A DNA stretch of 64,000 nucleotides. It comes from Vibrio cidicii. GTDB lineage: Bacteria > Pseudomonadota > Gammaproteobacteria > Enterobacterales > Vibrionaceae. Location of the stretch: the NCBI RefSeq assembly GCF_009763805.1, contig NZ_CP046803.1:868001-932000 (forward strand). Reading direction: 5' to 3'. Positions 3,286 through 57,493 of the stretch are shown in pieces. The position numbers and the translations under genes are program-made. The notes below the pieces were generated by a model that did not search any database, was not told the origin of the DNA, and saw nothing but the letters and a program-made list of their open reading frames with translations. How positions within the stretch are numbered: the first letter of the stretch is position 1; the number at the start of each line of letters is the position of its first letter.

Positions 3286-5764
3286 ATGTCATCAAGTAAT
3301 ACGCAATTTGACGTCAGCATTTTAATCGTGGATGACGAGCAAACCAATTTGATCATAATGGAAGAAGCACTGCGTGGTCTGGGACGCATCATCTCTACCA
3401 CCAATCCGTTGCAAGCTCTTGATCTTGCTGCGGTCCACCTACCAAAAGTGACGATTCTTGATATTGAGATGCCCACGCTCAATGGCTTAAGCCTGTGTAA
3501 GCAGTTATTGGAAAATCCAGACACCGCCAACACCGCTGTTATTTTTATCACCTCGCACAACGAAACCGACCTGGAGTACCAATCGTTTGAGTACGGAGCG
3601 GTAGATTTTATTGCCAAACCAATTGACATGCGCCTCTGCCGTTTACGAGTGCTGAATCAACTGCAATTGCGTGTTCAATCCGATGCGTTATCAGTCGCCA
3701 AAGGCGATTTGCAAGACTTACTCACCCAGCTACCCATTTTCGTCTCTTATTGGTCACCGCAGTGGGAAACGACGCTTTTGTAATGATTACAGCAAAAATT
3801 GGTTTGGTCTCAGCACCGACAAAGAGCTGGATAGAGAGGCCAGTATCGATATGGTTTTGCCGGAAGCGCTCGCACAGCGCATTCGCAGAGAAGTTTGCTG
3901 TCAGCACGATCAGAATAATCTCGTATTTCGCTATGAACTCAATACCTATGTTGCGGGGACCAAACATTTAGATATCCATGTGAAACGACGTATTACCGAT
4001 GATAAATTAACTGGCTACATCGTCACCGCCGTCGATATGACCAATATCGTCAATACTCAACTCGCCTTAACCGAAGAAAAAGAGTGGCTTAACGTTACGT
4101 TAAATTCTATTGGCGATGCCGTCATTGCTACTGATATTAACGCACACATCACCTTCATGAATCCAATCGCCGAAAGCATGACAGGTTGGCGGCAAGCACA
4201 AGCCAAAGGCAAACATATTGAAGAGATAATGCTGTTGTGCGATGCGACCACGGAACAAAAGAGTTTTAATCCAATCTTGTTGGCGCTAAAAGAACAGCGC
4301 ACCGTCGCCATGGCATTGAACTGCCAACTCACTTCAAGAGACAACAAAGTGTATCGGGTGGAAGATTCTGCTGCCCCCATTCGTAACAATCAAGGCCAAG
4401 TTATTGGTGCTATTATTGTTTTTCACGATGTGAGTGAAGCGATTGCCATGTCGGTAAAAATGAGTCATTTGGCCAATCACGATCAATTGACTGATCTGCC
4501 CAATCGCGTGCTACTGCACGATAGACTCAATAACGCCATGCGCATTACACAAATTCAAAAACGGCGTCTCGCGATGCTGTTGATTGATATCGATAACTTC
4601 AAATATATCAACGATACGCAAGGGCACCACGTCGGAGATTTACTGATCAAAAAACTCGCTACCCGCTTAGCGGAACACTGTCTTCCTGATTTCACCATAG
4701 CCAGAGCTGGTGGAGATGAGTTCATTATCATCGCCACCAATGTCTCCAATCTCGGCACGATTGACTCTTTTGCCACTGATTTGCAGCTTGCCATCAATCA
4801 TCCGTTTTATATCAACGGTACGGCCCATCGAATCACCGCCAGCATCGGCATTAGCATCTACCCCGATGATGCCGATAATGAAGAAAAGCTATTGCGTTAT
4901 GCAGACACGGCAATGTACCGGGCGAAGAAACAGGGTAAGCAGCAACACTGCTTCTTCTCGCAAGATTTAGAGTCCGAACTGCTTCATCGCCATCACGTTG
5001 AAATTCAGCTCAGACAGGCGATTGAGCGTAATGCACTGGAGGTGCTATTCCAGCCGCAGTACAACCTGCAAGACCACGCTATTGTCGGCTGTGAAGCACT
5101 GGTTAGGTTAAGAGATACCAATGACAGCCTGATCTCACCACTCGATTTTATCCCAATCGCCGAAGAAACCGGCCTTATCAACCAGCTCGGTTTGCAAGTG
5201 ATGATGAAAAGTTGCCGCATGGCAAAGCAGATGCTCGACGACGGCATGCCGACACGCTTTTCTGTCAATGTCGCGGCGAAACAGTTCGCCAACCCCGGCT
5301 TTGCCAACGAGGTCAGCGCTGTTCTTCAAGAAACTCAGTTACCTAGCCACTTGTTGGAGTTGGAAGTCACCGAGAGCGCCTTAATGAATGACTTCGAAAC
5401 CACCAGAAATATACTGTTGAGCATTAAAGCACTGGGTGTGTCCATTTCTATCGACGATTTCGGCACTGGCTACTCAAGCCTCTCTTATCTCAAAGCCTTC
5501 CCAATCGATGAGCTGAAAATCGATAGGGCATTTGTTAGGGATATGACCAAAGATGAGCAGAGTTTCAACATTGTAAAAACTGTCGTTCATCTGGCCAAAT
5601 CACTGGGCTTAACACTCGTTGCCGAAGGCATTGAAACTGCACATGAAGAAAAGCTTCTGCATGAGTTAGAGTGCGAACTAGGCCAAGGCTTTTTGTTCTC
5701 TCGCCCAGTCACTTATGACATGCTGCGCACATTGGTAGAGAATGTTAACTATGTGAAGGTGTGA
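3286..5764 (+). pseudogene. REC-PAS-GGDEF-EAL bifunctional c-di-GMP protein, one-base frameshift
   Basis: Corrected length is 825 aa. An N-terminal receiver domain (Asp59 in TILDIEMP, KP motif at IAKPID) is followed by a PAS-like segment (SYWSPQWE to KNWFG), a second PAS, a GGDEF domain with an intact RAGGDEF and no RxxD I-site, and a C-terminal EAL domain. The EAL domain has the hallmark motifs CEALVRL, LEVTES, DDFGTGYSSL, KIDRAFV and VAEGIE, so phosphodiesterase activity is likely. The reading frame breaks at a GAAAC at 3766-3770. Dropping one A gives WERRFCNDY and joins the PAS in frame. Both halves look fully conserved, so an artefact or very recent mutation is likelier than decay. It is divergent from a REC-GGDEF/kinase pair, suggesting that the same kinase may control both synthesis and breakdown. 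Confidence 0.85.
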
Positions 5765-5810
5765 AGCAAGCTTAAGCTTGCCTCCTTGAGAAACCCAATG
5801 ACCTTCACAA

Positions 5811-6221
5811 TCAATCCAACTCACACTCTATACTGGCGATTGGCGTGGCATCTTCACTGAAACAGACATACGCCCAAACCGCTTGTTGTGGGCGAAAGGT
5901 AATGTAGCCCGCCTTTACGTCATCTTTTTTAAAGTTGAGCTGACTTGCGACCAATTCACGCCCATCAATTAAGGTCGCTTCAATGTGCTCACGTAGCCAA
6001 ATAGCGATTTTTTCTTTGCGAGATGTCGAAGTGATGGTGATTTCTGCGCAGCGAAGCGGTGGATTTTGTGCAACGCTTGATCGCTTGCCATCCTCGTTCT
6101 CTTGGACTTGATAACCTTGAACCACATCATGCAAGCGCTCAATCGTCACCTGACAGTCATCAGCGGCCTGAACGCTCGAGGCGGAGAATAAACACAACAA
6201 CGCAATGTATTTTCTTAACAT
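5811..6221 (-). CDS. secreted or periplasmic protein of unknown function
   Basis: I do not recognise the family. The start at 6221 (136 aa) is chosen over one 35 codons further upstream because it gives a clean signal peptide (MLRKYIALLCLF...SSVQA) and sits behind an AAGGA-like ribosome site. The mature part has four cysteines (DDC, LRC, YVC, IEC), which could form two disulfides in the periplasm, and it is mostly beta-like. It lies alone between the EAL gene (convergent) and the DUF3297 gene (divergent). Function unknown. Confidence 0.7.
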   Translation of the reverse strand: MLRKYIALLCLFSASSVQAADDCQVTIERLHDVVQGYQVQENEDGKRSSVAQNPPLRCAEITITSTSRKEKIAIWLREHIEATLIDGRELVASQLNFKKDDVKAGYITFRPQQAVWAYVCFSEDATPIASIECELD

Positions 6222-6432
6222 AATCTCAGATATTCCTTGTTTGCCAGAAACCGAGCTTACCTGCTCAGCTTGTCGCTGACTGTCAAAAGTTGGTGAATTG
6301 AGGTTAAGCAAAATCAAACAAGCCACTGTTGCCCAGCGCTTTCAGCTTGTAACAGCGCTAGCGACTTCACTTGAACAGCGCGCTGGCTCTGTCTACAATG
6401 ACGCACTTTTTAGCGACTTTAGGTCAAAAAAC

Positions 6433-6682
6433 ATGAACGACACTACGGCAAAACCAGCCCTACCGGATCGCCTAGCGGGTAATCCACGCAGCCCTTTCTT
6501 TATTAAAGAGTGTTTCGAACACCAAATCGGTATCCGTTTTAACGGCAAAGAAACGTACTGATGTTGAAGAGTACTGCATCAGCGAAGGTTGGGTTAAAAT
6601 TCCATCGCCAAAAGCAAAAGATCGCTACGGCAACCCAATGCTGATCCAACTGAAAGGCACGGTTGAAGCTTACTACGTGTAA
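6433..6682 (+). pseudogene. DUF3297 family protein, one-base frameshift
   Basis: Small cytoplasmic protein of 82 aa after correction, start MNDTTAKPALPDRL. The family motif RFNGKERTDVEEY and the C-terminal LIQLKGTVEAYYV are both present but in different frames. A GAAAC at 6550-6554 introduces a premature stop after GKETY. Removing one A restores the family sequence exactly where DUF3297 proteins are most conserved. The family has no established biochemical function and is sometimes mislabelled as glutathione peroxidase. It is monocistronic and divergent from the secreted protein gene. Confidence 0.75.
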
Positions 6683-7128: not shown

Positions 7129-7197
7129 TTTGCCTATTTTGGTCGCAGAAGCGCATATAAACTCTGCGGCCTGCCACTCCTCTTTCTCGCCCTACAA

Positions 7198-7363: not shown

Positions 7364-8999
7364 ATGTCCTTGTTTAAGAATCTACCAATCGGCAAAAAAA
7401 TTGCCGTTACATTGGGTGCCGTCGCTATTACGATTTTAGTGTTTGGCGGCTATGTTTACCGTTCGCTCAACACGATCAACAGCGATGTGCTTAATCTGAC
7501 CGACGATACATTGCCTGCAATGATGGTTGTCGATGGAATTAAGTACAACATGTCTTCCGTACGACGCGCGCAAATCAGCCTGCTTGCTTCAACCGATGCC
7601 AGTGAAATCGCCGAAGATATTCACTGGATGAATGAGCGCTATCAAAAAATTGAGGCCGATCTACGTCATTACGAACGCAGCATCTGGACTGACAATGAAC
7701 GCCGAATTTTTACTCCCGTCAAAACACTGTGGCAGGACTACCTCAATCAGTTGGGTTCTTTCAACAATGACATCATGCAAGCCGAGAAATCGAAAGCACA
7801 GCAAGATCTGCAACGCTCACTCGCAACATTTGAAAAGTTGGAAGTCGCGATTGATGAGCTGCTAAAACTCAACCTCACTTATGTAGATAGAAACCGCAAT
7901 GAGCTGGTTTCACTGATCAGCACGATTAGCCAGTTTTCCCTAATTGGCATGGCATTACTGGTCGGCTTTATGAGTGTCATCACTTGGATGCTAACCAATC
8001 TTATTTGTCGCCCTTTGCAGCAAGTGGTCACTCAAGCAAACGCCATTGCCGATGGCAACTTAGCCTACCAATTAGATCGCCAACATTTTGGCCAAGATGA
8101 ACTTGGCGAAACTGGCCGATGCGTGCCACACCATGCAAAACAATTTGCGCGTGATGGTTGAAGAAATCATCACCAGCGCGACACAGCTTTCTCATGCGGT
8201 CGATGAAGTGAGTGCCGTCTCCGAGCAAACCTCTCAGGCGATGCAGATCCAGCAAGAAGAGGTGATGCAAATCGCCACTGCCATGGCGGAGATGAAATCT
8301 ACCGTAGCTGAGGTGGCTCGAAATACCGAATCCACCTCAGATTCGTCTCGTGAAAGTAGCCAGCACGCCAATTTAGGTTCACAGCAAATGCGCACGGTAG
8401 CTGAGTCTATTCAGCAGGTTAATCAAGAAATTAGCCAAGCCGAACAGCGTGTACTAGAACTGGAAACGCAAGCACAGCAGATTAACATGGTGGTGGATGT
8501 GATCAGTAATATTGCCGATCAAACCAATCTGTTGGCACTGAACGCAGCGATTGAAGCGGCTCGTGCCGGTGAACAAGGTCGCGGTTTTGCTGTAGTCGCA
8601 GATGAAGTTCGCGCTCTCGCAGGAAAAACCCAGCAATCGACAGGCGATATTGTTGAAATCATTCAAAATCTGCAAAGCTGCGCAGAAAAAGCACGCCAAG
8701 CGACCACAAACAGCAGCCACTTGATCCAAACGAGTGTGCAGCAAAGCCAAGAAACACAACAGGCAATTGAACAAATTCGCCAGCAAAGCGGCCAAATTGC
8801 CGATATGACCATCCAGATCGCCAGCGCATGTGGTGAGCAAGATTCAGTCACTGAAGAGCTGAGCCGCAACATCGAGCGCATTAATGAATCCGCCAAACAT
8901 GTTGCACAAGGCTCTTCTTGCGCCGCGCAATCCTGCGTCGAATTGAGCCAGTTGGCGAACCAACTGCAAAATACCGTCCAGCGATTTAAGCTGCGCTAG
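7364..8999 (+). pseudogene. methyl-accepting chemotaxis protein, one-base frameshift
   Basis: Corrected length is 544 aa. TM1 lies at about residues 10-32, a periplasmic four-helix bundle at about 35-185 and TM2 at about 188-212. A HAMP domain follows, then the cytoplasmic signalling domain with the invariant hairpin tip ([16 protein letters not shown] and [13 protein letters not shown]). The frame breaks at the end of HAMP, at a GAAAC at 8108-8112. Dropping one A gives the typical [13 protein letters not shown]. The ligand is unknown. The C-terminus lacks an obvious NWETF-type CheR/CheB tether. It is monocistronic and ends in a strong bidirectional terminator. Its receptor partner 1.5 kb away has a different, longer ligand region. 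Confidence 0.88.
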
Positions 9000-10481: not shown

Positions 10482-12459
10482 CTAAACCTTGAAATGTGCA
10501 ATGAGTTGTTGCTGTTTCGCCGCCAGATCGGCCAACACTTCACTGCTGGTAGCCGATTCTCTCGCTTCCCGTTCAGTTTCATGCGCCACTTCCGAGATGC
10601 CTGTCACGTGGTGGGCGACGCTCTGGCTAACCAAAATCTGCTCTTGCGCCGCGTGTGCGACTTGATCGGCCATCTCTTTAATCGCACTCATGCGATCCGC
10701 AATCGACTGCAATGCGCCGTCCATTTCTCGCGTTTGCTCCACGCAGGTCCGCGTTTGCTCTTGGCTGCGGCCCATCACTTCCACCACTTCTTTACTGGAT
10801 TGCTGCAAGTTCTCGATCATATTTTGGATCTCTTCGGTCGAGGTTTGCGTGCGAGTGGCCAGCGCACGCACTTCATCAGCCACCACAGCAAAACCGCGTC
10901 CGGCATCGCCCGCGCGAGCAGCCTCAATCGCGGCGTTCAAGGCCAATAAATTGGTTTGCTCGGCGATACCGCGAATCACATCCAAGATACTGCCAATGTT
11001 GTTGCTAAACTCGCCCAGTTTATGGGTAATGCCGACCGCAGACTCCATATCGGTTGCAAGTTGCTCGGTAATGCGTCGTGTAGTCGCGACTTTCTGCCGA
11101 CCATTCTTAGCTTCGGCATCAGCGCGATCCACCTCATCTTTCGCGCCATCGGTCGAACGCGCAACCTCGGTGGCACTCACTTCAAGCTCAGTAATGGCAG
11201 CCGCGACCTGATCGGTCTGGCTCTTTTGCTCTTGCACGCGCGCCATCGCCCGTTCACTTATTTCTGCCGAACGGCTCGCTTCTTCCACCAAGTGGCGCGA
11301 TCCGGCGTTAATTTGCGACAACAATTCACCGGTTTTGTCGGCCAAAATATCGATAGAAACGGGACAGCTCGCCAAACTCACAGCGGGTCTGATAATTGAT
11401 TCGGCGCGTCATATCGCCTTTGGCCATGTAGGCCAACTCACTGTTGATTTTCTGCAATGGTCTTTGAATGCTGAGCGCGGTGGTGTAGCCAATAACCAGT
11501 GCCACCGCTGCAGAAATGGCAGACACCGCCATGATCCAGAAATTGGCACTGCTTACCGCCGCATCCGCGAGCACGCGACTTTGCTCTGCGATTCTGCCCG
11601 CCGATTGCGCCATTTCATCTAGCTTTGAAAGGCTATTGGCTAGGCTCGCATCAACCTGTTGGTTTTGACTCACGAGATCGTTTTCAAGCTGTTGCGCTTT
11701 GCGCATGGTTGCCAGCAAACCTTGCTGCCCAAGCGCCAATTCTTGCAAGCGGTTCAGGTTCGCTACATAGCGCGCCTTAACATCGTCCGCCACCAGCACC
11801 CGTTCGAGCCGTTTGCGCGCCATTTCGATATCTTTACTGAGCACTTTTTCCAGCTCATTGAGATCGGTTTTGGCATCGGCGCGACGGATGTTTTTCAAAT
11901 CACGAGCAATCCCCGAGGTAATCAGCTCCGCTTTATTACGCATTGAGCGTTGGCTAGCACTCTGTTGTAACAGCAAGTCCGCCGCCCATTGATAGGTGTC
12001 TTCTAAACGAATAAAGGCAATTTCCAGCTCTCGGCGCTGCAACAAGGTATTGACCCATTCACCATGTTTCGCCAACACTTGGTCGGCTTGCGCGTAGAAT
12101 TGATCGGTCGCTTTGAGCACCTGTTGGAACTGGCTTTGGCTTTCTTCTGAAGCCAGTTTGTTCATCTCTTGGCTCAGTTGCCGAAAACGAGCTTGCTGGT
12201 CTTGAAAGCGACTCGAAAGTTGCGGTAATTCGTTCGCATCTTCGCTGGTGCGAAACTCAAGCACCCAACGGTTACTCTCTTGTAACGCTTCTTTAAGCCC
12301 AGCCACCGACACCACTAAAGGCGTCGCCTTATCGGTAACTTGAGACAAACCATCATTAATGCCTTGAATTTTAAACGTACTGATGACGCCCAATAAGATC
12401 AACAACAGGAGCATCAACACGAATCCAGCGATAATCCGCTGTACGATAGATAAGCCCAT
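10482..12459 (-). pseudogene. methyl-accepting chemotaxis protein with long helical sensor, one-base frameshift
   Basis: Corrected length is 658 aa. The start at 12459 (MGLSIVQR) has GAGGA at good spacing. An ATG six bases upstream sits too close to it. TM1 is at about residues 8-30. The periplasmic region is about 270 residues long and almost entirely helical, like the bimodular four-helix (HBM) sensors. TM2 (FWIMAVSAISAAVALVIGY) follows, then HAMP and a signalling domain with [16 protein letters not shown] and [13 protein letters not shown]. The break lies just after HAMP, at a plus-strand GAAAC at 11356-11360. Dropping one base gives [13 protein letters not shown]. It is followed 8 bp later by the sugar-binding protein gene, so the two form an operon. 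Confidence 0.88.
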
Positions 12460-12653
12460 GTACATATCCTCGTTGATGAATGAGTAGATAGATTAAACAT
12501 AGCCCCGATTCGCGCAGGTGGTGCAACAGGCATCACGATTTGTGATGTTTAGTGTTGCAGTCGGGTATCGGGTAAGGTGTGAAGAAAACGGAAGTCTTTG
12601 CTTAGCCAACAGCAAAGATTTTGTCGTGAAATGAGCAATACCTCAGGCAAGAC

Positions 12654-16824: not shown

Positions 16825-18529
16825 TTAAGCGCCCACCGAAACTCGCTTGGCATAGACAGGTTTAGAGTGCTCATCTACATCTTTGATTTTGCTCTCTAAA
16901 ATCACTTTATAGGGCAAATTTAAACTGAGTAAGTGATGGTAACGTTGCTCAATTTGATCTCTTTTCAGTTTCAACGTTGGGGTAAGCAGGCCGTTTTCGA
17001 TGCTCCAAGGCTCTTCCACCACGATTAAGTGATCCAGCTTTTCATGCGCTTCAAGCTCTTGGTTGACCTTTATTAACGTCTCCTTAAGCTCTTTTCTTAC
17101 CTGAGAGGTATGCCCATGAGTGCCTTCTCCCAACACAATAAGTGCGATCGGTTGTTTTCGACCAACGCCAATCACGCACACCTGTTCGATGTCCGGATTT
17201 CGTCCTAAGCTACTTTCAATGGGTACCGGCGAGACGTACTTGCCTTTGCTGGTTTTAAACTGCTCTTTCACCCGACCAATAATTTTCCAAGAACCGTCCG
17301 CCTTCAACTCCGCTTTGTCTCCGGTTTTAAACCAACCATCTTCAAAGGCGGCTTGCGTCGCTTCTTCGTTGTTGTAGTACGTGGAAAACACGGCATCGCC
17401 TTTAATCAACACTTCCCCTTCCGCCGATAACTTCATTTCGACACAAGGTTGCGGCGTGCCAATGGTACCTAGGTGATTAAAATCAAACGGCACGTTGCTG
17501 CACGACAGACCTGAGCTTTCAGTCATCCCCCAACCTTCACCAATACTGATGCCAATTTTGTGGAACCAAAGCAGGACCTCAGGAGAGATAGGCGCACTGC
17601 CAGAGCCAAATAGTACGCACTCTTGCAGCCCTAAATTTTCGCGTATCTTTCTTGCCACAAGCTGACCAACAAAGGGAATTTTGAGCAGCAGTTGCAAACG
17701 ATTGTTCGGCATTTTTGCCAATATTTTCGACTGAAATTTCGTCCACAGTCTCGGTACGGACAGAAAAGCCGTTGGACGAGCGTACTTAACGTCGTCAATG
17801 AAGGTATCGATGGACTCGGTAAAAAAGACTTCCGCAGGATTGTAGATCGAAGGCAGTTCAACCACGCAGCGTTTCTGTGATGTGCGCTAGAGGTAAATAA
17901 GACATCACACGTGTCGCCTCTGACTGGAAAAAGATTTCACTGCCAGAAATGGCAGAGGATGCCACATTTAAATAACTGAGCAGAACGCCTTTTGCCAGGC
18001 CGGTACTGCCGGAAGTGTAGATGATAGAAAAAGTATCGCTGAGCGCAGGCGTGTTGACCTCTGCAAGCGGCTCTAGTTTTGACAACCATGCATGCCAGTC
18101 CAACTGACAATCAACTTTGGCACTCGGCATAGCGATGGTGATTAAAGAATCGGGTAAGGCTTGGCAAAGCTCTTTACTATCATCGAGTTTGCCAATGAAC
18201 ATGGCTTTAACACCACTGTGCTCAATCACATACTTGATGTTGTCCGCACTGGCCGTTGGGTAGATAGGTACGCTGATAAGCCCAGCCATCATGATAGCCA
18301 AATCACAGATGTACCACTCTGCCGAGTTTTTAGCGATGATCGACACTTTATCGCCCGCCACTAACCCGGCATCAAGCAACCCTTTCGCTACCTTTCTGGC
18401 GGCCGTGTCCGCCTCTAGCCAAGTGTAGGTATGCCATTGTCGATCAACAGGTTGATGTAGCCAGACTTTATCAGGATGTTGCTTAACGTTGATTTTCAAC
18501 TGGTCTAAAGGCGTGCGGTAGTTGCTCAT
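16825..18529 (-). pseudogene. long-chain acyl-CoA synthetase (AMP-binding), one-base frameshift
   Basis: Corrected length is 567 aa, the usual size for bacterial long-chain acyl-CoA synthetases (ATP + fatty acid + CoA to acyl-CoA + AMP + PPi). The start at 18529 (MSNYRTPLDQLK) has AAGGAAGGG upstream. The A3 motif SIIYTSGSTGLAKGV, A4 SYLPLAHITER, A5 GWGMTESSG and A7/A8 GWFKTGDKAE...GRVKEQFKTSKGKYVSP are all present. The frame is lost inside the motif after LAHITE at GAAAC (plus strand 17871-17875, GTTTC). One fewer base gives ITERCVVELPS. The membrane-peripheral product would feed beta-oxidation or phospholipid synthesis. An adjacent ligase remnant lies downstream. Confidence 0.87.
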
Positions 18530-18916
18530 GAGTAACCCTTCCTTAGTCGTTTGAGGTTGCCGTTCCATTGCGATGATGCGTCATAAACGATGGAAATCAG
18601 AGCTGAGATCCTCTCCAACCCTCAAAGAATATTTCGCATCTTATGGTCAGACCAGAATAGATTTGAGCAACATTTAATCAACAATTATTTAACATTAAGC
18701 CATTGTTCTGAGATATGGCTTTTTAATATTGTCCGTTACAGCTGATGCATTTATAAATTAAAGCGACTTGATATGGATGTGTCGCAACAATTCAGAGTAC
18801 ATTTGTTACCCCAAAGTGCGCTTGTCGAGAATGGTCATCGCCTAGCTGTGATTGTCCATTGCAATCCCAAAGTAGGTCATGACCTCAGATGCCACTTACG
18901 CGGTTAGCCGAGATGA
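18530..18916. other. intergenic region, no gene supported
   Basis: AT-rich stretch between the acyl-CoA synthetase start and the helicase stop. It holds a terminator-like hairpin AAGCCAT / ATGGCTT followed by TTTTA at 18697-18725, and the acyl-CoA synthetase promoter should lie at the left end. A 44-codon open frame at 18773-18907 has no ribosome site and is not supported. Confidence 0.4.
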
Positions 18917-20156
18917 CTATTTGGCGCGCGGGTTCGGCTTGGTCAGTTTACTTTGGAACTGTTTGATGCTGTTTTTATTTTGCGTGCGGCGATTGGCTTT
19001 TTTGTCACGCGGAGCGCGCTTACTCTCACCCGTTGAGGGCTGATCCGTAACCGGGAAACCCTCTAGGTTCTGCACCGGCAATTCACGTTGCGTGAGGTGG
19101 CGAATGGCATTGAGCGCTTCCATTTCACCGTGGCACACCAGCGAAAGAGCAAGGCCTTGTTGCCCAGCTCGCGCAGTGCGACCGACTCGGTGTACATAGG
19201 TTTCGGCGTGCATCGGCAGGTCAAAGTTGATCACCACTGGCAGTTGTTCAATGTGGACACCGCGCGCTAAAACGTCCGTCGCAATCAGCACTTGGCTTTG
19301 GCCATTTTTGAGCTGCGCAAGCGCCGCCTCCCGCTCGCTTTGGCTTTTATCCCCATGCAATACACTGGCAGCGATGCCCGCTTTATTGAGCTTTTTACTT
19401 AAGCCATCGGCATGTTCTTTCGCACCAATAAACACCAACACCTGTGGCCATTGCTTTTGCTGCACAAGCTCAATCAAGGCTTTGGTTTTACTGCCTTTAT
19501 TGACGAGATAGAGCGTTTCCGCCACATCTTGATTAGTGCTGTTTTGCGCGTGAGCCGCCAGTTGAACAGGGTCTTGCATCAGTTGCGCGACTTTGTGCTT
19601 TAGCTCATCCGAAAACGTCGCCGAGAACATCGCGGTTTGTCGTGTACGGGCGGTTTGCTCGGCAATCTTCTGCACCTCGGGCCAAAAGCCCATATCAAGC
19701 AGCCGATCCGCTTCGTCCAGCACCAGCGTCGTTACGCGGTTCAAGCTCAATCCACTTTGGGTGAGATCGAACAAACGTCCCGTCGTGGCCACCAGAATAT
19801 TTGGGTTTCTCGGCTAGCGCATTTTGCTGCTCAATCTTATCTACCCCACCGCACAAGCAGAGCGTGTTCAGCCCTAACGGTTTGCCAACGTAAGTGAACA
19901 CTTCACTTACCTGCATGGCTAATTCACGCGTGGGTACCAACACTAAGGCTTGCTGCTCGGGGCTGGTTTTTAAACGCTCAAGCAGAGGCAGACCGTAAGC
20001 CAAGGTTTTACCGCTGCCCGTATTCGCCAGCGCCAGCACATCTTTACCAGCCAACAGGGCTGGGATCACCAGCGTTTGGATGTCACTCGGCTGAACGATG
20101 TTTTTCGGCAAAGCCTGAATCAGTTCAGAGCTTAAAGAAAGAGAGGAAAATGGCAT
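18917..20156 (-). pseudogene. DEAD-box ATP-dependent RNA helicase (RhlE-like), one-base frameshift
   Basis: Corrected length is 412 aa. The start at 20156 ([12 protein letters not shown]) is preferred over upstream in-frame starts, as it opens the Q-motif region. Helicase motifs in order: I ANTGSGKT, Ia VPTRELA, Ib [62 protein letters not shown]. The basic tail (KRAPRDKKANRRTQNK...) is typical of RNA-binding extensions. The frame breaks before motif Ib. Removing one base from GTTTC at 19805-19809 (GAAAC on the coding strand) gives [16 protein letters not shown]. Probably cold-shock/ribosome or RNA-decay related by family. Monocistronic. Confidence 0.88.
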
Positions 20157-20381
20157 GGCAACGTACCTAGACGATAACAGAAACGGTATAAAGGCGAACT
20201 TTACCACGGGCGAATACCGCTGGCTAAGGGTTTGCTCGCCCATTTTGCCCTCTTGTTAGCCTGAGTACGCGGCGCAGAAAGAAACGTAAAATTTCGTGTG
20301 CGTCACAACTTTTTCAGCCTCGTCTATTTATTGAGCAATTTATCTGCTAATTTATCTTCAAAATAATGAAGATTAAAAATT

Positions 20382-24231: not shown

Positions 24232-24355
24232 TTTAAGCAATCCAATGAGCTGATCGTCAGCTTAATACCAGCAAGTTAAACATCGTTGATGGTTATTTAG
24301 CGCGTGCTGACCAAAGTCAGTGCCGGCTCAGCTCATGCCTAAAAAAGGGGAAAAT

Positions 24356-25538
24356 ATGTTTTTACACGCCTTAGAAAAGCAAAATCCCGACTTAATTACC
24401 GCCGCGCTACGCTTATTTAAACAGGGCCAGATACTGCCAGATAGCACCGTCATTGATGTCGACCAATTTCTTGCCAACGCCCAGCAGATGCGGCGCGTAG
24501 CCAATGAGCTGGGCATAAAGCTTTACGCCATGACCAAGCAGTTTGGCCGTAACCCCAAACTAGCGAAACTGTTAATTGAGCAGTGCGATTTTGACGGTAT
24601 TGTGTGTGTCGATTTCAAAGAAGCACGCACGCTGGCCGCACAAGGTTTGCCCATCGCCAATGTCGGACATCTGGTGCAGCCGCCCAGCCATTTTGTTCCA
24701 ACCTTAGTGGCGGCTATCAAACCGCAAGTCATTACTGTCTACAGTCTGGAAAAAGCACGGCAAATCTCTGAAGCGGCGTACAATGCAAAAGTGACACAAG
24801 GTTTGCTGCTCAAGTTCTATCATTCGCGCGACCAGTTGTACGTCAATCAAGAATCGGGCTTTGCGATCGAAGATCTCAAACAGGTCGTGGCGGAAATTCA
24901 GGCCATGCCCAACGTCTATATTGCAGGAGTGACCCATTTCCCCTGTTTTTTGTTTAACCAAACCTCACAAAAAACCGAACCAACCCCCAATCTGACCACG
25001 CTATTGGAAGCCAAGCTCGCTTTGCAAGCGCTCGGCGTCAACTGCGAGCAAGTCAACGCGCCCTCAGCCACCTGTATTGAAACCTTACCCCTACTGGCTA
25101 AATATGGCTGCACGCACGGCGAGCCGGGCCACGCCCTGACCGGTACCATACCCGGTAACGCGGTCAGCCTACAGGCGGAGAAAATCGCCATGCTCTATTT
25201 AAGCGAAATCTCTCACCATTATGGCGCCGACAGTTATTGCTTTGCCGGGGGATATTATCGCCGCGGCGCGCTCGAACATGGTTTGGTCTATTATCGCGGG
25301 CAAAACGAGCGCGTACGTGTGTATAACGACGATCACGACAGCATTGATTACCATCTGCGTGTTGCCGGCCACTACCCCATCGGTTTCTCCGGTGATCATG
25401 GCATATCGCACCCAAGTATTTGTCACCCGCAGTGACGTGATTCTACTCCGTGGCGTCGCCCAAGGGCAGCCCAAAATCATCGGCAGGTTCGATGCACTCG
25501 GCAACCGCATCGACCAAACGGAGGTGTGTGATGGCTAG
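24356..25538 (+). pseudogene. yhfX: YhfX-like PLP-dependent (alanine-racemase fold) enzyme, one-base frameshift
   Basis: Corrected length is 393 aa (E. coli YhfX 387). The start at 24356 (MFLHALEKQNPDL) has AAGGGGAAAAT before it. The fold-type III barrel carries the PLP lysine in YAMTKQFGRN at about residue 60, then VDFKEA, NVGHLVQ, GVTHFPC and HGEPGHALTG. The C-terminal domain (MAYRTQVFVTRSDVILLRG) is in another frame. Removing one base from GTTTC at 25383-25387 (GAAAC on the other strand) gives PIGSPVIMAYRTQ. The end overlaps yhfW by 8 bp, so translation is coupled. Likely an amino-acid racemase or decarboxylase-like enzyme. Substrate unknown. Confidence 0.85.
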
Positions 25539-34419: not shown

Positions 34420-35598
34420 ATGAAACGAGTCATCAAAACCCTTTCTGTCTGTACGCTTGCAACCTTGATTGCCACGCCGGTCATGGCGATGCAAGAGGGC
34501 GAAATCACCATCTGGATCAACGGCGATAAAAGCTATGAAGGTCTGGCGCAAATTGGCAAACAATTTGAGCAAGATACCGGCGTAAAAGTGATCGTCCAGC
34601 ACCCAGAATCACTGGAAGCCAAATTCCAACAACACGCGGCCACAGGCGGCGGCCCAGACATCATCTTCTGGGCACATGACCGTTTCGGCGGCTATGCAGA
34701 AGCGGGCCTGTTGTATGAAATCAAACCAAGCAAAGCGTTTAAAGAGAAGCTGGTTGATTTCAGTTGGGACGCCGTGACCGTCAACGGCAAAATTGTCGGT
34801 TACCCATTGGCGATCGAAGCACCTTCGCTGATTTACAACAAAGACTTACTGCCAAACCCGCCTAAAACATGGGAAGAGCTGCCTGCGATTCAAAAGCAGA
34901 TGCAAAAGCAAGGCAAGCAAGCGATCATGTGGGACATCAAAAACGCCTACTTTACTTGGCCGGTGATCTCATCTGGTGGCGCGTTTGCCTTTGAGAAAAT
35001 CGACGGTGGCTACAACGCCAAAAGCACTGGTGTGAATAACCCAGCCGGCGTCGCAGGCCTGCAGTTCCTCGTCGACATGGTTAACCAAGGCGTACTCAAC
35101 CCAGACATGGATTACTCCGTTTCAGAAGCTGCCTTTACCAAAGGCGAAGCGGCAATGACCATAAACGGTCCTTGGTCGTGGGGCAACTTGGACAAAATGA
35201 ACGTCAACTACGGCGTGGCTGTTTTGCCTACCTTAAACGGCGGTAAAGGCAATCCGTTTGTTGGCATTCTCAGCGCGGGCATTAACTCGGCCAGTCCAAA
35301 TACCGATCTCGCGGTCGAGTTTTTAGAAAACTATCTGTTTAAAGATGATGCGCTGAAAACCATGAACGACGATAAACCGCTTGGCGCGGTGACGTTGAAG
35401 TCATTCCAGAAAGTGCTAGAGAGCGACGAGCGCATCCGATCCACCATGATCAACGCGGAAAATGGCGAAATTATGCCAAACATTCCGCAAATGACCGCTT
35501 ACTGGTTTGCCGAAGGCGCCGCGATTGATAACGCCATGCAAGGCAAACAGAGCGTTAAACAAGCGCTCGATACCGCAGCCAAACAGATCACTAAATAA
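34420..35598 (+). CDS. malE: maltose/maltodextrin-binding protein MalE
   Basis: 392-aa periplasmic binding protein with signal peptide (cleavage after PVMA, before [12 protein letters not shown]). MalE-family segments are [61 protein letters not shown] and FLENYLF, and the length is the same as E. coli MalE. It delivers maltodextrins to a MalFGK2 transporter, whose genes are not in this window. A strong terminator follows before the debranching enzyme gene, which may keep malE mRNA in excess. Confidence 0.92.
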
Positions 35599-35616: not shown

Positions 35617-35642
35617 GGCACAGTTTCGCTGTGCCTTTTTTC
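35617..35642 (+). terminator. terminator/attenuator after malE
   Basis: Stem GGCACAG / CTGTGCC with loop TTTCG and a T6 tail, 19 bp past the malE stop and only 16 bp before the next start. Readthrough would still make the downstream enzyme. Confidence 0.85.
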
Positions 35643-35657
35643 GTTTTTGGGAAGAAA

Positions 35658-38423
35658 ATGATGCCTATGCCCACTTTGTATTTAAAAGGCACCTTTAACG
35701 GTTGGGGACTTGATACCCCCTTTGTGCCAATTTCTGACTCACAGCTGCAAGTCAGCGTGGTGTTTTCCGCCGACCGCCATCAATGCAAAATTGCCGATAT
35801 GGATGGCAGCGCGCAATGGACACTGGCCGCGCACCCAACCCAAGCAGTAGCGCTTAATCTCGATCAGCCACAAACGCTGATCAGCACCCAAGGCATCGGC
35901 AACGATCTCGCCTTTACTCCCAGCCAAACTGGCCGTTTTACCTTGACGCTGGACTTATCCGGCACCGCTCCCACGCTGACCATCACCTCTGGCGCAAGCA
36001 ACCAACAAGCGCTCGCCCAGCGCGCGCTGCTTGATAGCGAGCTCCAAGCCGAATGCGATCCGCTGCCAACGATCGAGACACGTCAAGGTGCTCTTTCGGC
36101 CAACGAGCTGTTCGATACCCTCGCCATTGAAGAGACTGGCTCCTTTGCGTTTGTGTTTGGCGATAACGTCGATGGCTACTACGAAGGGCGCAGCCACTGC
36201 TTTGTTGGCGCAGGCCGTTATCGACATCATCAAGGTTGGTACTTAGGCGGCTTTGCCGCTTTTGTCGATGGCAAACTGCTAGATAAAACCCAAGCGAGCA
36301 GCGCGCGTTTACTCCCTTACGGCATTGAGCACCTGTTTGCCAGCCATAGCCGAGATCGCCTCTCGCTGGCGGCAGGGCAACGCTTGGTGACACTCAGCGT
36401 CGAAAGCCAAAGCGAGGCGGTGCTTTCGCTGCTGCCGGAGCTTAATCTCGGCCTCAACGACTGCACGATTGAAGCGATTGACGACGTGGTATTGATTGCG
36501 GTGAAACCTGAGCTGTGCCCAGAAAGTGCGCCACGCTTTATCGCCATCAGCGCCAATCAAGCCATTCGCGCCAAAGAGGTTAGCTTTGATGCGTATCCTG
36601 CGCTTGATACCGCTGTGCATCTCAACGGGCAAAATTGCAAATTGATGCTTAGCACGGTTCGAGAAACCACTCAACTGAGTGTTTATCTCTGCTTTGAGCA
36701 CAACTCAGCAGAGGCGCTGCACAAGGCCAAACTGGCCGCCAAACAGCACGCCGAAAAGCAGCATCAGCAGCAAATTTATCAGTTCCTGACCGACAATTAC
36801 CTATGGTGTGACGATGTGCAATACAACCGCGCAGTGATGTGGGCGAGGCTCGCCAGCCGCACGTTTGTCAGCCATGAATTTGGCGCTGGTATTTGGGCCG
36901 GTTTACCGTGGTTCAAAGATTGCTGGGGGCGCGATACCTTTATTGCCCTTTCCGGCACGTCACTAGTAAACGGTGCGTTTGACGAAGCGCGTGAGATCAT
37001 CCGTAATTTTGCCGCCATGCAGAAGGTGGATCTGGATGACGTCAATCATGGCCGCATTCCCAACCGCGTCACCAGTAAAACCAACATCATTTACAACACC
37101 ACCGATGGTACGCCGTGGATGATTCGCGAAGTGATGGAATACATCCACTACAGCGGTGACATGGCGTTTGCCGAGCAGATCTATCCTGTGGTGAAACGCT
37201 TTATCCAAGGGGTAGAGAAGCACTACTTAGACGATGATGGTTTGATGTCGCACCGCGATCCGGATACGTGGATGGACGCCAAAATCAATGGCCAGATCCC
37301 GTGGTCGCCACGTGGACCGAAAGCCAACGACATTCAGGCATTGTGGTTTGAGAGCCTGCAAATTGCCGAGCAGTTAGCCCACTGGCTGCAAGATTCGGCC
37401 TTTGCCGCGCATTGCGAGAAACTCAGCCAGCAAGTGGCGCAGAGCTTTGTAGCGAAATTTTGGAATCCAGAGAGCCAGCGCTTGGCCGATTGCCTGCGGG
37501 CCCAAGATATTGCCGATGAAAGCACTCGGCCAAATCAGTTACTCACTTTGACTATTCCGCTCAAACGCAATCTGATTTCTGCCAACATTGCGCAGCACGT
37601 GGTGAAAAACAGCGTTGAGCAGTTGCTCTTTCCGTGGGGCATTTGTTCTTTGGCGCAAGATCACCGCGATTTCCACCCGTATCACGACAATCGCAGCGAG
37701 TACCACAAAGACGCGGCTTACCACAACGGCACCATTTGGGGCTGGAACGCCGGATTTACCGTCAGTGCTTTGTGCCAATTCAAGCAGCAAGATTTTGCTT
37801 ATCAGCTGAGTAAAAATCTCGCTCAGCAGATCTTAACCCAAGGGCATCGTGGCACCATGAGTGAAAACCTCGATGCGTATCAAGCGGATGAAAAGGCGTT
37901 GGTGATGACAGGCACTTACGCGCAAGCGTGGTCCGTCTCTGAATATGCGCGCAACGCGCAGCAAGATTATCTCGGCTTTAACCCGCGCCTCGCCGAGCAA
38001 CGTATTATTTTGCGCCCGGCCCTACCAAGCGCTTGGCAGCAGGTCAAAGCGCGCCTGCCCTTTGGTCAAGATAATGCGCTGTGGTTTGAGATGACAAGCA
38101 ACAAGGATGGCACTGTTTACAGTGTAAAAGCCGAACGCGACGAGCCATCAATAACCTTGCTGCTGGAGCTGGAGACGAGCGACAAACATCTGCAAATCAC
38201 AGGGACGCTGCAAAGCGAGCTGCAGGTAACTATCCGCCATGGCGAGGTCATTTGCTCCCCGAGCGATGTGCACTGCGTGGAAAGTGCGGCGGTGCACTAT
38301 CCATTGCTCGATGGGCTCTGCTTTGCTCAACCTGACTGGCAACGCGAGCATTCAGCGCTGACACAGAGTGACTACTTGCTGCAAAAGCGCATGACGGAGA
38401 AGCTCAACATCGCACAAGATTAA
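35658..38423 (+). CDS. amylo-alpha-1,6-glucosidase/glycogen-debranching-type enzyme
   Basis: 921 aa, no signal peptide. An N-terminal carbohydrate-binding-like beta module (TLYLKGTFNGWGL, residues 4-110) is followed by a beta-rich domain (150-370). An (alpha/alpha)6 barrel of the GDE_C type spans about 390-790 (IWAGLPWFKDCWGRDTFIAL, DPDTWMDAKINGQIPWSPRG, YHNGTIWGWNAGF). The family removes the single 1,6-linked glucose at branch points. The start is one of three close ATGs. Those at 35658 and 35661 follow GGGAAG. It is downstream of malE behind a terminator, so it is probably a mal gene expressed at lower level. Second debranching enzyme of the region besides GlgX. Confidence 0.83.
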   Translation: MMPMPTLYLKGTFNGWGLDTPFVPISDSQLQVSVVFSADRHQCKIADMDGSAQWTLAAHPTQAVALNLDQPQTLISTQGIGNDLAFTPSQTGRFTLTLDLSGTAPTLTITSGASNQQALAQRALLDSELQAECDPLPTIETRQGALSANELFDTLAIEETGSFAFVFGDNVDGYYEGRSHCFVGAGRYRHHQGWYLGGFAAFVDGKLLDKTQASSARLLPYGIEHLFASHSRDRLSLAAGQRLVTLSVESQSEAVLSLLPELNLGLNDCTIEAIDDVVLIAVKPELCPESAPRFIAISANQAIRAKEVSFDAYPALDTAVHLNGQNCKLMLSTVRETTQLSVYLCFEHNSAEALHKAKLAAKQHAEKQHQQQIYQFLTDNYLWCDDVQYNRAVMWARLASRTFVSHEFGAGIWAGLPWFKDCWGRDTFIALSGTSLVNGAFDEAREIIRNFAAMQKVDLDDVNHGRIPNRVTSKTNIIYNTTDGTPWMIREVMEYIHYSGDMAFAEQIYPVVKRFIQGVEKHYLDDDGLMSHRDPDTWMDAKINGQIPWSPRGPKANDIQALWFESLQIAEQLAHWLQDSAFAAHCEKLSQQVAQSFVAKFWNPESQRLADCLRAQDIADESTRPNQLLTLTIPLKRNLISANIAQHVVKNSVEQLLFPWGICSLAQDHRDFHPYHDNRSEYHKDAAYHNGTIWGWNAGFTVSALCQFKQQDFAYQLSKNLAQQILTQGHRGTMSENLDAYQADEKALVMTGTYAQAWSVSEYARNAQQDYLGFNPRLAEQRIILRPALPSAWQQVKARLPFGQDNALWFEMTSNKDGTVYSVKAERDEPSITLLLELETSDKHLQITGTLQSELQVTIRHGEVICSPSDVHCVESAAVHYPLLDGLCFAQPDWQREHSALTQSDYLLQKRMTEKLNIAQD

Positions 38424-50891: not shown

Positions 50892-51747
50892 TCAGCGAAC
50901 TCTGGCTAAACGGTCAAAACTCTCAAACACTTGCTGACATTTCATGACACGGCCATGCCCTTGACCGCTGGTACTAACCAGTTCAACACGTGGCATTTCT
51001 CTGGCGGCAGAGGCTGATATTGCGTGGCTGGTGAATTTATCTTGCTGGTCGTGCACTATGATGGTCGGCGCTTCGCGCATTGCCAAACGGCGATACGGAT
51101 CGATAGACTGAATGGGATAATTGAACTGCTCTTCAACCTCTGACACCACCGCCTTAAACAGCTTCATCGAATACCCTGAACGTTCAATGCTGGAGAACAA
51201 GTTCTCAACATAGTTGAGCACGGGCGCAATCAACAAAATCGGCTTGTTTTCCAGTTTACGATGACGGCATTCAAGCGCGGATGCGGTGCCCATGCTGTGG
51301 CCGATCAAACCTTCGATTTGCGCAACTGAGTCGAGTATCACCTCTAAACCTTCGACAAAAGCGGGAATGTGTCCAATCTCACCTGAGCTCTCACCATGCG
51401 CCGGATGATCATAGGCAAGCGCAGTAAACCCTTGCGCAGCAATATACTCCATTAGCGGGAAAAACTGACTGGCCGTTTCCGGACCAACCATGGGTCAGCA
51501 CCCAAACCGGCCCCGCACCTAACTGATAGGTGGTCAAAGTGCCATGAGGTGTGCTGACTTGGCCTTTCACCAGTCCATTCGGTTGTGCATTTTTGCTCTT
51601 CGTTCGCGCCGGAGTAAGTAATAACTTACGTGCGGTTTTCTTCGCATGAGTCGGGGCAAGCGTATGATGCAAGCGAGTAGACCAGTTCACTAAACTGCGC
51701 TTTAGGCTGAACTTTGCTGACGTATTGAAGTAGATTTTTTCACTCAT
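50892..51747 (-). pseudogene. alpha/beta hydrolase, one-base frameshift
   Basis: Corrected length is 284 aa. The start at 51747 (MSEKIYFNTSAKF) is behind AAGGACAACAAA. The strand-turn WVLTHGWSGT, the nucleophile elbow in GLIGHSMGTASAL (catalytic Ser) and a C-terminal His in SGQGHGRVMK are present. The frame breaks in the HGWSG oxyanion region at a plus-strand GTTTC, 51475-51479 (GAAAC on the coding strand). One base fewer gives THGWSGTASQFFPLM. Substrate unknown. It follows a TetR gene in the same direction but with a terminator between them. The regulator may control it. Confidence 0.8.
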
Positions 51748-51796
51748 TTTGTTGTCCTTGGATCGCAATAGAACGACCGTGCTATTTTTATGCTTT

Positions 51797-51820
51797 AAAA
51801 AGGGCAACCGCGTTGCCCTT
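51797..51820 (-). terminator. terminator after the TetR gene
   Basis: Stem AAGGGCAAC / GTTGCCCTT with loop CGC. On the minus strand it is followed by TTT. Confidence 0.75.
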
Positions 51821-52808: not shown

Positions 52809-52899
52809 CCTTAGCGACGTCCAACGAATTGGACTGTAATCACACCTAAACCGTTCATTTGTGTCTAGAATTTCTCCAAACAAATAAGGAGAAATTTCT

Positions 52900-54336: not shown

Positions 54337-54418
54337 AGCGAAAAAAGGGGTAAACCGATTCGTTTGCCCCGATAAAGCTTTCGCTTGGCGCACTTTGGTG
54401 CGAAATCCCCCCTGCCAA

Positions 54419-54817
54419 TTACTGCCGGTCCGCTGGGTGGTTGACGCCATCCATGAGCGGCACATTGCCCAACTCATACGGGTTCACGCCATCCAGACAA
54501 CCGAGGTTGTAGCCATATTCGTCCGGCGCGGAACGACGTTGATGATGAGTATAGATGCCGCAGTGAGAGCAAAAGTAGTGCTTGGCGGTGTGGGTATTAA
54601 ATTGGTACAGCTTGAGCGATTCTTCACCTTGCAAAATACGGATACCGTCCAATTTCACCGAAGCGACGATGGCCCCTTTTCGTCGGCAAATCGAACAGTC
54701 ACAGCGTCTTGGTTTCTCAATACCATTGGGCAGGCTCAGTTCGAGCACAACCTTGCCACAATGGCAGGAAGCGGTATGTTTTTCTAATATCGGGGTTTTT
54801 CCAATTTGTTTGATCAT
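54419..54817 (-). CDS. GFA family protein (glutathione-dependent formaldehyde-activating-like)
   Basis: 132-aa Zn-binding beta protein. Cysteine motifs are SCHCGKVVLEL (residues 18-28), CDCSICRRKGAIVA (39-52) and CSHCGIYTHH (83-92), the full zinc ligand set of the family. Members act on glutathione adducts, though few are proven. Start after AAGGAGAACTTCA. Monocistronic between nhaD and the YitT gene. Confidence 0.87.
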   Translation of the reverse strand: MIKQIGKTPILEKHTASCHCGKVVLELSLPNGIEKPRRCDCSICRRKGAIVASVKLDGIRILQGEESLKLYQFNTHTAKHYFCSHCGIYTHHQRRSAPDEYGYNLGCLDGVNPYELGNVPLMDGVNHPADRQ

Positions 54818-55009
54818 TGAAGTTCTCCTTGTATGCGCCTTGTAGCAAACTCATTTTTTCCCTCAACCTCAAATCCGCTGTGTAAATTTTGTTAAACACA
54901 TAACATTTTGCCGATTTCAGTATGCCACTCGACAAAAAACACAATAATCGACATCTTTAGCCAGTTTTTGCCCGTTTTACGTCTTTGACGACCAAATAAG
55001 AAAGGAATC

Positions 55010-55624
55010 ATGATAATGGATAAAGATCATAGCCTCAGAGAAAATCTATTGGCGCTGACGCTCGGTAGTGCCTTGGTTTCACTCGGCGTCATTTTTTCCA
55101 GCAAAGTAGGACTGCTCACAGGTGGTACCGCTGGATTAGCAATTTTCCTGACAAAAATCAGCGACTTTAGTTTTGGTCAGGTATTTTTTGCCCTCAACTT
55201 GCCTTTTTACCTACTTTCCGTACTGCGCATGGGTTGGCGTTTTACCATCAACACTTTTATCTCGGTTACGATTGTCTCCTTCGCCGTTGACCATCTGCAT
55301 CACGTGATTGAAATCGCACATATTGATCCGTTCTACGCAGCACTGCTGGGCGGCGGATTGATTGGGATAGGCATGCTGATCATTTTCCGCCACAAAATGA
55401 GTTTGGGCGGCTTCAACATTCTTGCGCTGTTTTTACAAGAACGTTTTGGCATCCGAGCAGGTAAAGTGCAAATGGCGCTCGATTGCGGCATCGTCATCAT
55501 GTCACTGTTTATTGTTGAGCCAACTCTAATTGCGCTTTCCGTGTTAGGCGCAGTGGCCACCAACTTGATTTTGGCCATGAATCACAAACCCGGGCGCTAT
55601 CAAGCAAAAACTCAAACGGCTTAA
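55010..55624 (+). CDS. YitT family membrane protein
   Basis: 204-aa inner-membrane protein with about five TM helices (LALTLGSALVSLGVIFSS, TGGTAGLAIFLTKI, VFFALNLPFYLLSVL, ALLGGGLIGIGMLIIF, ALDCGIVIMSLFIV) and the family motif GLLTGGTAGLAIFL. It has only the DUF161 membrane part and lacks the C-terminal DUF2179 domain of Gram-positive YitT. Function unknown. GGAATC precedes the start, and a second ATG two codons on is possible. Confidence 0.83.
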   Translation: MIMDKDHSLRENLLALTLGSALVSLGVIFSSKVGLLTGGTAGLAIFLTKISDFSFGQVFFALNLPFYLLSVLRMGWRFTINTFISVTIVSFAVDHLHHVIEIAHIDPFYAALLGGGLIGIGMLIIFRHKMSLGGFNILALFLQERFGIRAGKVQMALDCGIVIMSLFIVEPTLIALSVLGAVATNLILAMNHKPGRYQAKTQTA

Positions 55625-55633
55625 CAATCACTT

Positions 55634-55658
55634 AATCAGGGGCTTATCGTCCCTGATT
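55634..55658. terminator. possible terminator overlapping the ogt stop
   Basis: Stem AATCAGGG / CCCTGATT with loop GCTTATCGT. It lies past the YitT stop, and the left arm lies just beyond the ogt stop codon. T tails are poor, so function is uncertain. Confidence 0.4.
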
Positions 55659-56123
55659 ACTCTCTTTATCCAATAACCACCGCTTCCGCTCAATTCCGCC
55701 TGCATAACCTGTAAGTTTGCCGTTCTTACCAATCACACGATGGCAAGGCACTACGATCGAAACCGGGTTTTTACCATTGGCAAGCCCGACCGCCCGAACT
55801 GCTTTTGGGTTGCCAATCGCATTAGCTAACTCCTGATAACTCCATGTTTCTCCATAAGGAATGGTAGTTAACGCCTGCCAAACCTGCATCTGAAAAGCAG
55901 TTCCTTTAGCAGCAATTGGTAAATCGAATTGGGTCCTCTTTCCCGAGAAGTATTCATCCAGTTGAGTTAACGCCAGGCTAAGCACTGAGTGGTTGACATC
56001 TTCCTGACCGAGATCATCAGGCCGAGTCGTTTGAGTGGTAAACCAGATGCCAAGGATGCCTTCATCATTGGCTTGTAACGTCATCTCACCCAACGGGCTT
56101 GGTGCGATAGTGTAATAGTTCAT
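55644..56123 (-). CDS. ogt: methylated-DNA-protein-cysteine methyltransferase Ogt
   Basis: 159-aa suicide repair protein that takes methyl from O6-methylguanine onto Cys127 in the motif VVPCHRVIGKNG. Also present are GTAFQMQVWQALTTIPYGETWSY (the minor-groove-entering helix) and AVGLANGKNP. It starts one base after the stop of the Ada-AlkA fusion gene, so they are an alkylation-repair operon. The usual order in Ada-type systems is the same. Confidence 0.92.
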   Translation of the reverse strand: MNYYTIAPSPLGEMTLQANDEGILGIWFTTQTTRPDDLGQEDVNHSVLSLALTQLDEYFSGKRTQFDLPIAAKGTAFQMQVWQALTTIPYGETWSYQELANAIGNPKAVRAVGLANGKNPVSIVVPCHRVIGKNGKLTGYAGGIERKRWLLDKESNQGR

Positions 56124-56124
56124 A

Positions 56125-57493
56125 TCATTGATTCCATAGATGAAAAGTGGCGTAACTACCCCATGGGGAGGCCGTTTTTGCGTTCAGTTGCGGATAAGCT
56201 AACAAGGCTTTTTTCACTACCAAGTCTTTATCTAAAAAGCAATCTGGGCGCGATTCTCCCCTGAGCTGCGCATAACTGACCGTCCATGGACCTATCCCTT
56301 TGAGCGCTAACCACGTTTCGGGATCCGCATCAGGGTTGTCTTGCACATAACAGGCGAAGCGATGCAAAGTCTCTTTACGGCTTTTCGGCATGCGCAGAAA
56401 ATCGAGATTCGCTTGAGCAAGTTGCAAAGGGGTTGGGAAACAACGCTCACTAGGCTCTGGCATGAGCGTGCTCACCAACAAGTTAAGCTGTCCGATGGCC
56501 GCCTTAACCGACACTTGCTGACCTAAAATGGCGCGAAACGCCCGCTTCCCATGCATTCCATACTCCGGGAATGCGAATACCGGTTTGTTTGACAAGACCA
56601 GGAGCGAGTGACTGCAAATGGCGCTCAATGTTATCGGTATTGCAATTCAGATCGAGCATTTGGCGAATTTTTTTCACTAGCATATGCAGTTGGCCAACAT
56701 CGTCTAATCGAAACCACACCGTCATCTGCTGTTCTGCCGTTTGCTGCACCCTAAACCAAACGCGAGAGCCCGCCAAATTCGCAAAGCGAGAATAGCTGTT
56801 CTCATCCACTTGCTCGACCCCCTCAATGGCGCGTAAACGGTAGAAGTTCAACATGTGTGACCAATCCATCGCGCCCTGAAAAGGGATTATCAGCGCTTGT
56901 TCACCGGCTGGCAGCGTAACTTCTCGCCGCACCTGTGAGGGAGTCAACTGGATCACTTTTTTAAAAGCGTCATTAAAGCGGCGCGTGCTGTTAAAACCCG
57001 CGGCAAAGCCGATGTCCGTGACACTGAGATTACTCATATGCAGCAGTTGTTTGGCAAACATCAACTGTTGATATTGGGCGTACTGCTTGGGCGCGATACC
57101 CAAATAGCGTGAAAACAGTTGCCGAACATAACGATCGCTCACGCCTAATCGCTGTGCAAGCTCAGCGAGCGAGTGCTGCTGCAACGCACCACTATCAATA
57201 AGATGGAGCGCGCGCTGGAAGGTAGTTTCTACCCCTTTCCACGCCCAGGAGCCTGGGTGACTTTCTGGCCTGCAACGCAAACAAGGTCGATAGCCTGCAT
57301 CAAGCGCCTGAGTGCGATCGCTGTAGTATTCCACATTTTCTTCTTTCGGCAGATTCGCCGGACAAACCGGTCGACAAAAGATACCTGTGGTTTTGACTGC
57401 CACATAAAATAAGCCGTCAAAACGACTGTCACGCGCCATTCTTGCCTGCTGGCATTGCTCTTTCGTCAACGGTGAATAGACTGATATCGCCAC
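56125..57493 (-). pseudogene. Ada/AraC-AlkA fusion: regulator plus 3-methyladenine glycosylase, one-base frameshift
   Basis: Corrected length is 455 aa. The Ada N-terminal zinc domain has Cys40, Cys44, Cys71 and Cys74 (TGIFCRPVC...YRPCLRCRP), where the nucleophile Cys40 corresponds to E. coli Cys38. An AraC-type HTH follows (90-185, LAELAQRLGVSDRYVRQLF), then an AlkA-type glycosylase (about 190-455) with AGVRAILGQQVSVKAA, the HhH LALKGIGPWTVSYAQLRG and a catalytic Asp in FLDKDL. It senses methylphosphotriesters, activates its own operon and removes 3-methyladenine. The break is at a plus-strand GAAAC, 56535-56539. One fewer base gives WEAGVRAILGQQV. Followed by ogt. Confidence 0.87.

Follow-up and report, generated by a model that had tools for sequence, protein, structure and literature searches.

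Why should nine genes within 64 kb of a Vibrio cidicii genome be broken at the same five bases? The stretch analysed here, referred to as the window (C1:868001–932000, 64,000 bases of a 4.75-Mb genome in two contigs, C1 and C2), has its nearest named matches in Vibrio. The initial annotation placed nine frame breaks in it, each at GAAAC or GTTTC and each repaired by reading GAAC or GTTC, and all nine pentamers are present where it placed them. Comparison with close relatives indicates that the cell very probably has all nine genes intact and that, at some GAAC sites, the deposited sequence very probably contains one base too many. The surplus bases are likely to be errors of the consensus at phosphorothioated GAAC/GTTC sites, made in assembling native DNA that was probably sequenced in long reads.

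Direction, context and coding location of the extra base

DNA syntenic to the window was found in two close relatives, G141 and G186, which share 95% and 94% DNA identity, respectively, with the genome studied here over one 2-kb gene. One-base insertions or deletions (indels) were counted when at least 7 of the 10 bases on each side matched. GAAC>GAAAC accounted for 7 of 41 such indels in the window against G141 and for 5 of 27 against G186, with none in the reverse direction, while the control comparison of G141 with G186 gave 0 of 24 in either direction. A wider comparison of C1:628001–1192000 with C2:550001–1030000 of G186 yielded 384 kb of alignment in 41 pieces, each of at least 500 bases and at least 85% identity, in which dropping poorly flanked events reduced the one-base indels from 265 to 212. 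GAAC>GAAAC made up 52 of these (25 and 27 on the two strands), with no reverse event, and the next class comprised five. On the other replicon, C2:2941001–3141000 compared with C1 of G186 gave 21 GAAC>GAAAC among 71 one-base indels, again with no reverse event. The other indel classes were small and ran both ways. The affected sites total 73 in approximately 509 kb of aligned DNA on both replicons.

In agreement with the initial annotation, according to which other GAAC sites were unaffected, 1767 conserved sites stood unaffected beside the 52 C1 events, so that 2.9% of the conserved sites were altered; in the C2 stretch, GAAC gained a base 21 times and was conserved 668 times. Among close contexts in the C2 stretch, no gains were recorded for CAAC and GAAG, and TAAC and TAAG gained a base in 0 of 560 and 1 of 484 cases, respectively. 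The larger C1 stretch contained one CAAC>CAAAC, and longer A runs showed no excess comparable to that at GAAC. The raw frequency of GAAAC per 100 kb and strand was modestly higher than in G186 (117.8 vs 107.2). The initial annotation had also seen no break of another kind, which nearly holds for the C2 stretch, where 19 of 23 frame breaks had the pentamer in the junction and four did not. An initial attempt to explain the sites by a long bipartite motif, GAAAC N11 GATC, was unproductive.

Selection removes genuine frameshifts from genes. With the intact open reading frames (ORFs) of G186 as the coding map, 48 of the 52 GAAC>GAAAC events fell in coding sequence; the corresponding counts were 1560 of 1782 for conserved GAAC sites and 38 of 160 for the remaining one-base indels (Fisher test on the coding share of the 52 events, p = 0.39 and p = 3e-19, respectively). 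There is no trace of selection against these frame breaks, and because their coding share resembles that of GAAC sites generally and not that of other one-base indels, the events appear to be artefacts. If real, they would break 48 of the 307 well-aligned genes in the wider C1 stretch. Furthermore, rpoC, encoding the RNA polymerase beta' subunit, lies on C2 in two frames meeting at 3034313–3034317, with GAAAC at 3034314, and a working cell with rpoC truly broken is hard to imagine. When 67 K-12 proteins were searched against C2:1–400000 by tblastn, six were found and one match was usable, a distant ftsW/rodA-like one with a frame change near GAAAC, which lends slight support. Among the explanations raised by the initial annotation, a systematic error of the consensus next to a modified base thus fits best with the one-sided direction (52:0), the lack of avoidance of coding sequence, the split rpoC and the small share of altered sites, and we infer an error of this type.

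The dnd operon and the proposed modification

At approximately 655–670 kb on C2, the genome carries dndB, dndC, dndD, dndE, a DGQHR gene, dptH and dptG. Profile matches exceeded the cut-offs for dndB (TIGR03233, 466 bits), dndD (TIGR03185, 497 bits) and dndE (TIGR03184, 94 bits). Each half of dndC matches DndC, with a change of frame between them near GAAAC at C2:668165; in the cell, the gene is presumably intact. Among the restriction partners, DptG and DptH match, and the place of dptF would fall outside the scanned stretch. Compared with the proteins of one E. coli dnd island, the DndC pieces are 68–70% and DndE is 74% identical. A 242-amino-acid ORF without a family match and the DGQHR gene, which matches TIGR04172 below its cut-off (353 vs 450 bits), lie between dptH and dndE (L137:7669–9560, C2 approximately 662.7–664.6 kb). 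Of 227 Vibrio genomes, 32 gave a dndC match, neither G141 nor G186 being one of them.

GAAC/GTTC has been described as the Dnd target in Salmonella Cerro 87 and E. coli B7A (PMC9069010; PMC9521924). The account in PMC9521924 gives A or C at −1, G or T at +1, G at +2 and C at −2 as preferred at marked GAAC sites, with 12% of sites marked in Salmonella. We compared the flanks of the 73 affected sites with those of 2430 unaffected GAAC sites from both replicons. A or C at −1 occurred at 59 affected and 1112 unaffected sites, G or T at +1 at 58 and 1231, the two together at 47 and 538 (p = 4e-14), and G at +2 at 36 and 697, respectively; T at −1 was nearly absent from the affected sites (1 of 73 vs 910 of 2430). 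The affected sites match the published preference at −1, +1 and +2, and the bias on one side of the core roughly mirrors that on the other (−1: C 28, A 31, G 13, T 1; complement of +1: C 22, A 36, G 11, T 4). At SMGAACKS, the affected share was 13.4%, indicating partial marking. The initial annotation had left the nature of the modification open; the dnd operon and the flank preference together point to phosphorothioation as the likely one.

The extra bases may have arisen as follows. The DndCDE complex would swap a backbone oxygen for sulfur at GpsAAC/GpsTTC. Where most molecules are marked, the read signal would be disturbed and one more A or T may be called, which the consensus would retain. 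The present data directly support the motif, its single direction, the absence of selection, the splitting of essential genes, the presence of a dnd operon and the preference in the flanks, as well as one independent replicate, described below. Sulfur would presumably be present at the affected sites in more than about half of the molecules, and the sequencing would probably have been on a long-read platform. We lean towards regarding some dnd-positive assemblies as readable phosphorothioate maps, in which a spurious GAAAC may denote a GAAC with sulfur in most cells; in the present Vibrio, most molecules would bear the mark at the same subset of sites, and the effective target would be wider than four bases (S-M-GAAC-K-S).

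The gene set, the GAAC/GTTC target, the preferences for A/C at −1 and G/T at +1, and the partial marking resemble those described for DndBCDE/DptFGH of Salmonella Cerro 87/E. coli (PMC9521924). In contrast, mostly low occupancy is reported for E. coli B7A in PMC6459556, whereas our data suggest high occupancy at some sites. According to the nanopore results given in PMC9069010, base errors at GAAC/GTTC depend on dndC, and 3.9% of GTTC and 4.4% of GAAC were flagged in wild-type Salmonella. The motif is thus the same, but those errors were read-level and scored against amplified DNA, with no insertion type noted among them, whereas here they persist as inserted single bases in the deposited consensus. 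Also comparable are the consensus indels that vary with the strain and lie at modified positions in Oxford Nanopore (ONT)-only assemblies (PMC12506013), although base methylation is concerned there and a backbone mark is proposed here. Literature searches, which were judged by titles and had most subscription journals outside their reach, returned no title on phosphorothioate errors in assemblies. Within these searches, the apparent novelty is that the error persists in deposited assemblies, where its one-base insertions imitate the loss of many genes and show which sites are modified. Extrapolation from the 73 sites suggests that several hundred genes of the genome, rpoC included, would be listed as broken though intact. 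The defence system would itself look damaged, its own product corrupting the reading of its own gene, and assembly quality estimates may suffer. If the proposal is true, the artefact would reveal heavily marked GAAC sites at no extra cost and would have a bearing on the question why phosphorothioation is confined to some of the consensus sites.

Other dnd-positive genomes and alternative causes

K-12 RpoC was compared with 40 chosen Vibrio genomes, picked to be rich in dnd-positive ones (18 with and 22 without dndC). A split rpoC was found only in the genome studied here and in G010, both dnd-positive. G010 carries dndB, dndC, dndD (in two pieces), dndE and part of dptH, and its DndC is 82–90% identical to the DndC pieces described above. 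Beside dndB of G010 lies a phosphorothioation-associated putative methyltransferase gene (L221:11513–13540; TIGR04096, 709 bits). A frame-break test, in which 152 intact proteins of G186 served as queries, took 8 of 13 genome sets, leaving out G151, G230, G242, G234 and G006. In G010, 48 covered proteins contained eight frame breaks, all eight with GAAAC/GTTTC in the junction (approximately 21 bases each; approximately 0.4 expected overall), all eight with a shift of one extra base modulo 3 and none with T at −1. The effect in G010 was thus revealed by frame breaks in conserved proteins, while the indel table of this genome looked weak, with 4 GAAC>GAAAC in 157 events.

Several results, this table among them, weigh against the proposed cause. 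In G010, TAAG also gained a base four times, and 4 of 373 GAAC sites were changed. The link between split rpoC and dnd is statistically weak, since two of two split genomes would be dnd-positive by chance with a probability of approximately 0.2 in a survey enriched for dnd-positive genomes. The pentamer was present in 0 of 12 frame breaks in six other dnd-positive genomes, and 0 of 1642 GAAC sites were changed in eleven other dnd-positive Vibrio genomes (G006 represented by one stretch). Among the single-piece full-length matches to E. coli dnd islands, 27 of 29 had the exact span of the query and the others differed by +11 and −1; no GAAAC insertion occurred in four aligned E. coli dnd islands, the +11 being a different insertion. 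As to the flanks, C at −2 was not significantly enriched (22 of 73 affected vs 540 of 2430 unaffected sites, p = 0.12), and in PMC6459556, at odds with PMC9521924, 360 E. coli B7A sites of high frequency are reported to share no additional consensus in their flanks. Because other dnd-positive Vibrio genomes and the E. coli islands are without the insertions, dnd alone is insufficient for the error, and platform, polishing or occupancy must differ between the genomes with and without it.

Among the alternatives, a consensus error beside a methylated base, in which a methyltransferase of the organism would mark some GAAC sites and the caller would insert a base, survives best but is improbable. 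Methyltransferase domains are present (two matches to PF01555, one of them over the cut-off, and four to PF02384), and modification-linked indels in ONT-only assemblies have been published (PMC12506013); however, a four-base motif is usually near-fully marked, yet few of the GAAC sites are altered, and the roughly symmetric flank bias fits the published phosphorothioate preference. The replicate G010 shares the dnd operon with the present genome. A weakness of the caller or assembler at GAAC in certain flanks, involving no DNA modification, seems a shade less probable still. That rpoC was split in 2 of 40 genomes although 18 carry dndC speaks for such a weakness, and indicates that platform clearly matters, but the close contexts CAAC, GAAG, TAAC and TAAG were spared in the C2 stretch apart from the single TAAG gain, and the flank bias agrees with the published dnd preference. 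Real one-base insertions by a mutator or slippage, which the initial annotation had already called less likely, find no support here and can practically be set aside: the single direction and context would suit them, but a single stretch would contain 48 inactivated genes out of 307 well-aligned ones, coding sequence is not depleted of the events, the split genes include rpoC and dndC, and no similar excess was seen at longer A runs.

The contamination estimates are 3.23% for the genome studied here and 5% for G010. G219, a dnd-positive genome in two contigs, also has 5%, and its examined stretch contained no frame breaks at GAAAC; high contamination alone is thus no flag for the artefact. The dnd island of E. 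coli AR_0374 (L188:10291–25071) lies a few kb from an insertion sequence (IS) element and a tet(B) tetracycline-resistance set.

Affected sites in the window

The initial annotation had proposed a comparison with orthologues, and five of its nine sites (3766, 11356, 25383, 51475 and 56535) have GAAC in G141, G186 or both. GAAAC at 3766–3770 (+) separates the pieces 3286–3783 and 3671–5764 (+) of a REC-PAS-GGDEF-EAL gene, recognized by its ORFs and domains; G141 has GAAC, and G186 is unaligned here. In a second chemoreceptor gene, GAAAC at 11356–11360 (+) lies between domains split over the pieces 11326–12465 and 10482–11381 (−), and both relatives have GAAC. GTTTC at 25383–25387 (−) breaks a YhfX-like gene, of which the piece 24320–25435 (+) holds YhfX-like_C positions 1–66 of 97; G141 has GTTC, and G186 is unaligned here. 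An alpha/beta hydrolase gene is broken by GTTTC at 51475–51479 (−) into 51409–51807 and 50892–51491 (−), with hydrolase domains in one piece and none found in the other, and both relatives have GTTC. Likewise, GAAAC at 56535–56539 (+), where both relatives have GAAC, breaks an Ada-AlkA gene into 56504–57493 and 56125–56628 (−), with Ada, AraC and AlkA_N domains in one piece and none found in the other.

At GAAAC at 6550–6554 (+), in a DUF3297 gene whose piece 6298–6561 (+) holds DUF3297 positions 1–30 of 71, the window is one base longer than both G141 and G186, with an additional substitution. For the remaining three sites, neither G141 nor G186 offers cleanly homologous DNA, and the breaks were recognized by Pfam domains split across two overlapping frames. 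These sites are GAAAC at 8108–8112 (+) in a chemoreceptor gene (pieces 7364–8161 and 8088–8999, +; 4HB_MCP/HAMP vs MCPsignal), GTTTC at 17871–17875 (−) in an AMP-binding, acyl-CoA synthetase-like gene (17858–18568 and 16825–17865, −; AMP-binding positions 4–220 and 235–384), and GTTTC at 19805–19809 (−) in a DEAD-box helicase gene (19695–20243 and 18917–19792, −; DEAD positions 2–95 and 100–165), where the DNA alignment is poor.

Two extra sites were invisible to the initial annotation as frame breaks because they lie outside genes. GTTTC at 35623–35627 (−) is located between the ORFs 34420–35598 and 35631–38423, where both relatives have GTTC, and GAAAC at 57969–57973 (+) lies just outside the ORF 57978–58874 (−), where no nameable gene is broken and both relatives have GAAC.

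In the genome studied here and in G186, the smaller replicon carries the window region and the larger one rpoC. The arrangement in G141 is opposite, with the window-like region (C1:1918313–1920325) on a 3.24-Mb contig and rpoC (C2:1168249–1172442) on the other contig, reflecting either an exchange between chromosomes or a misassembly.

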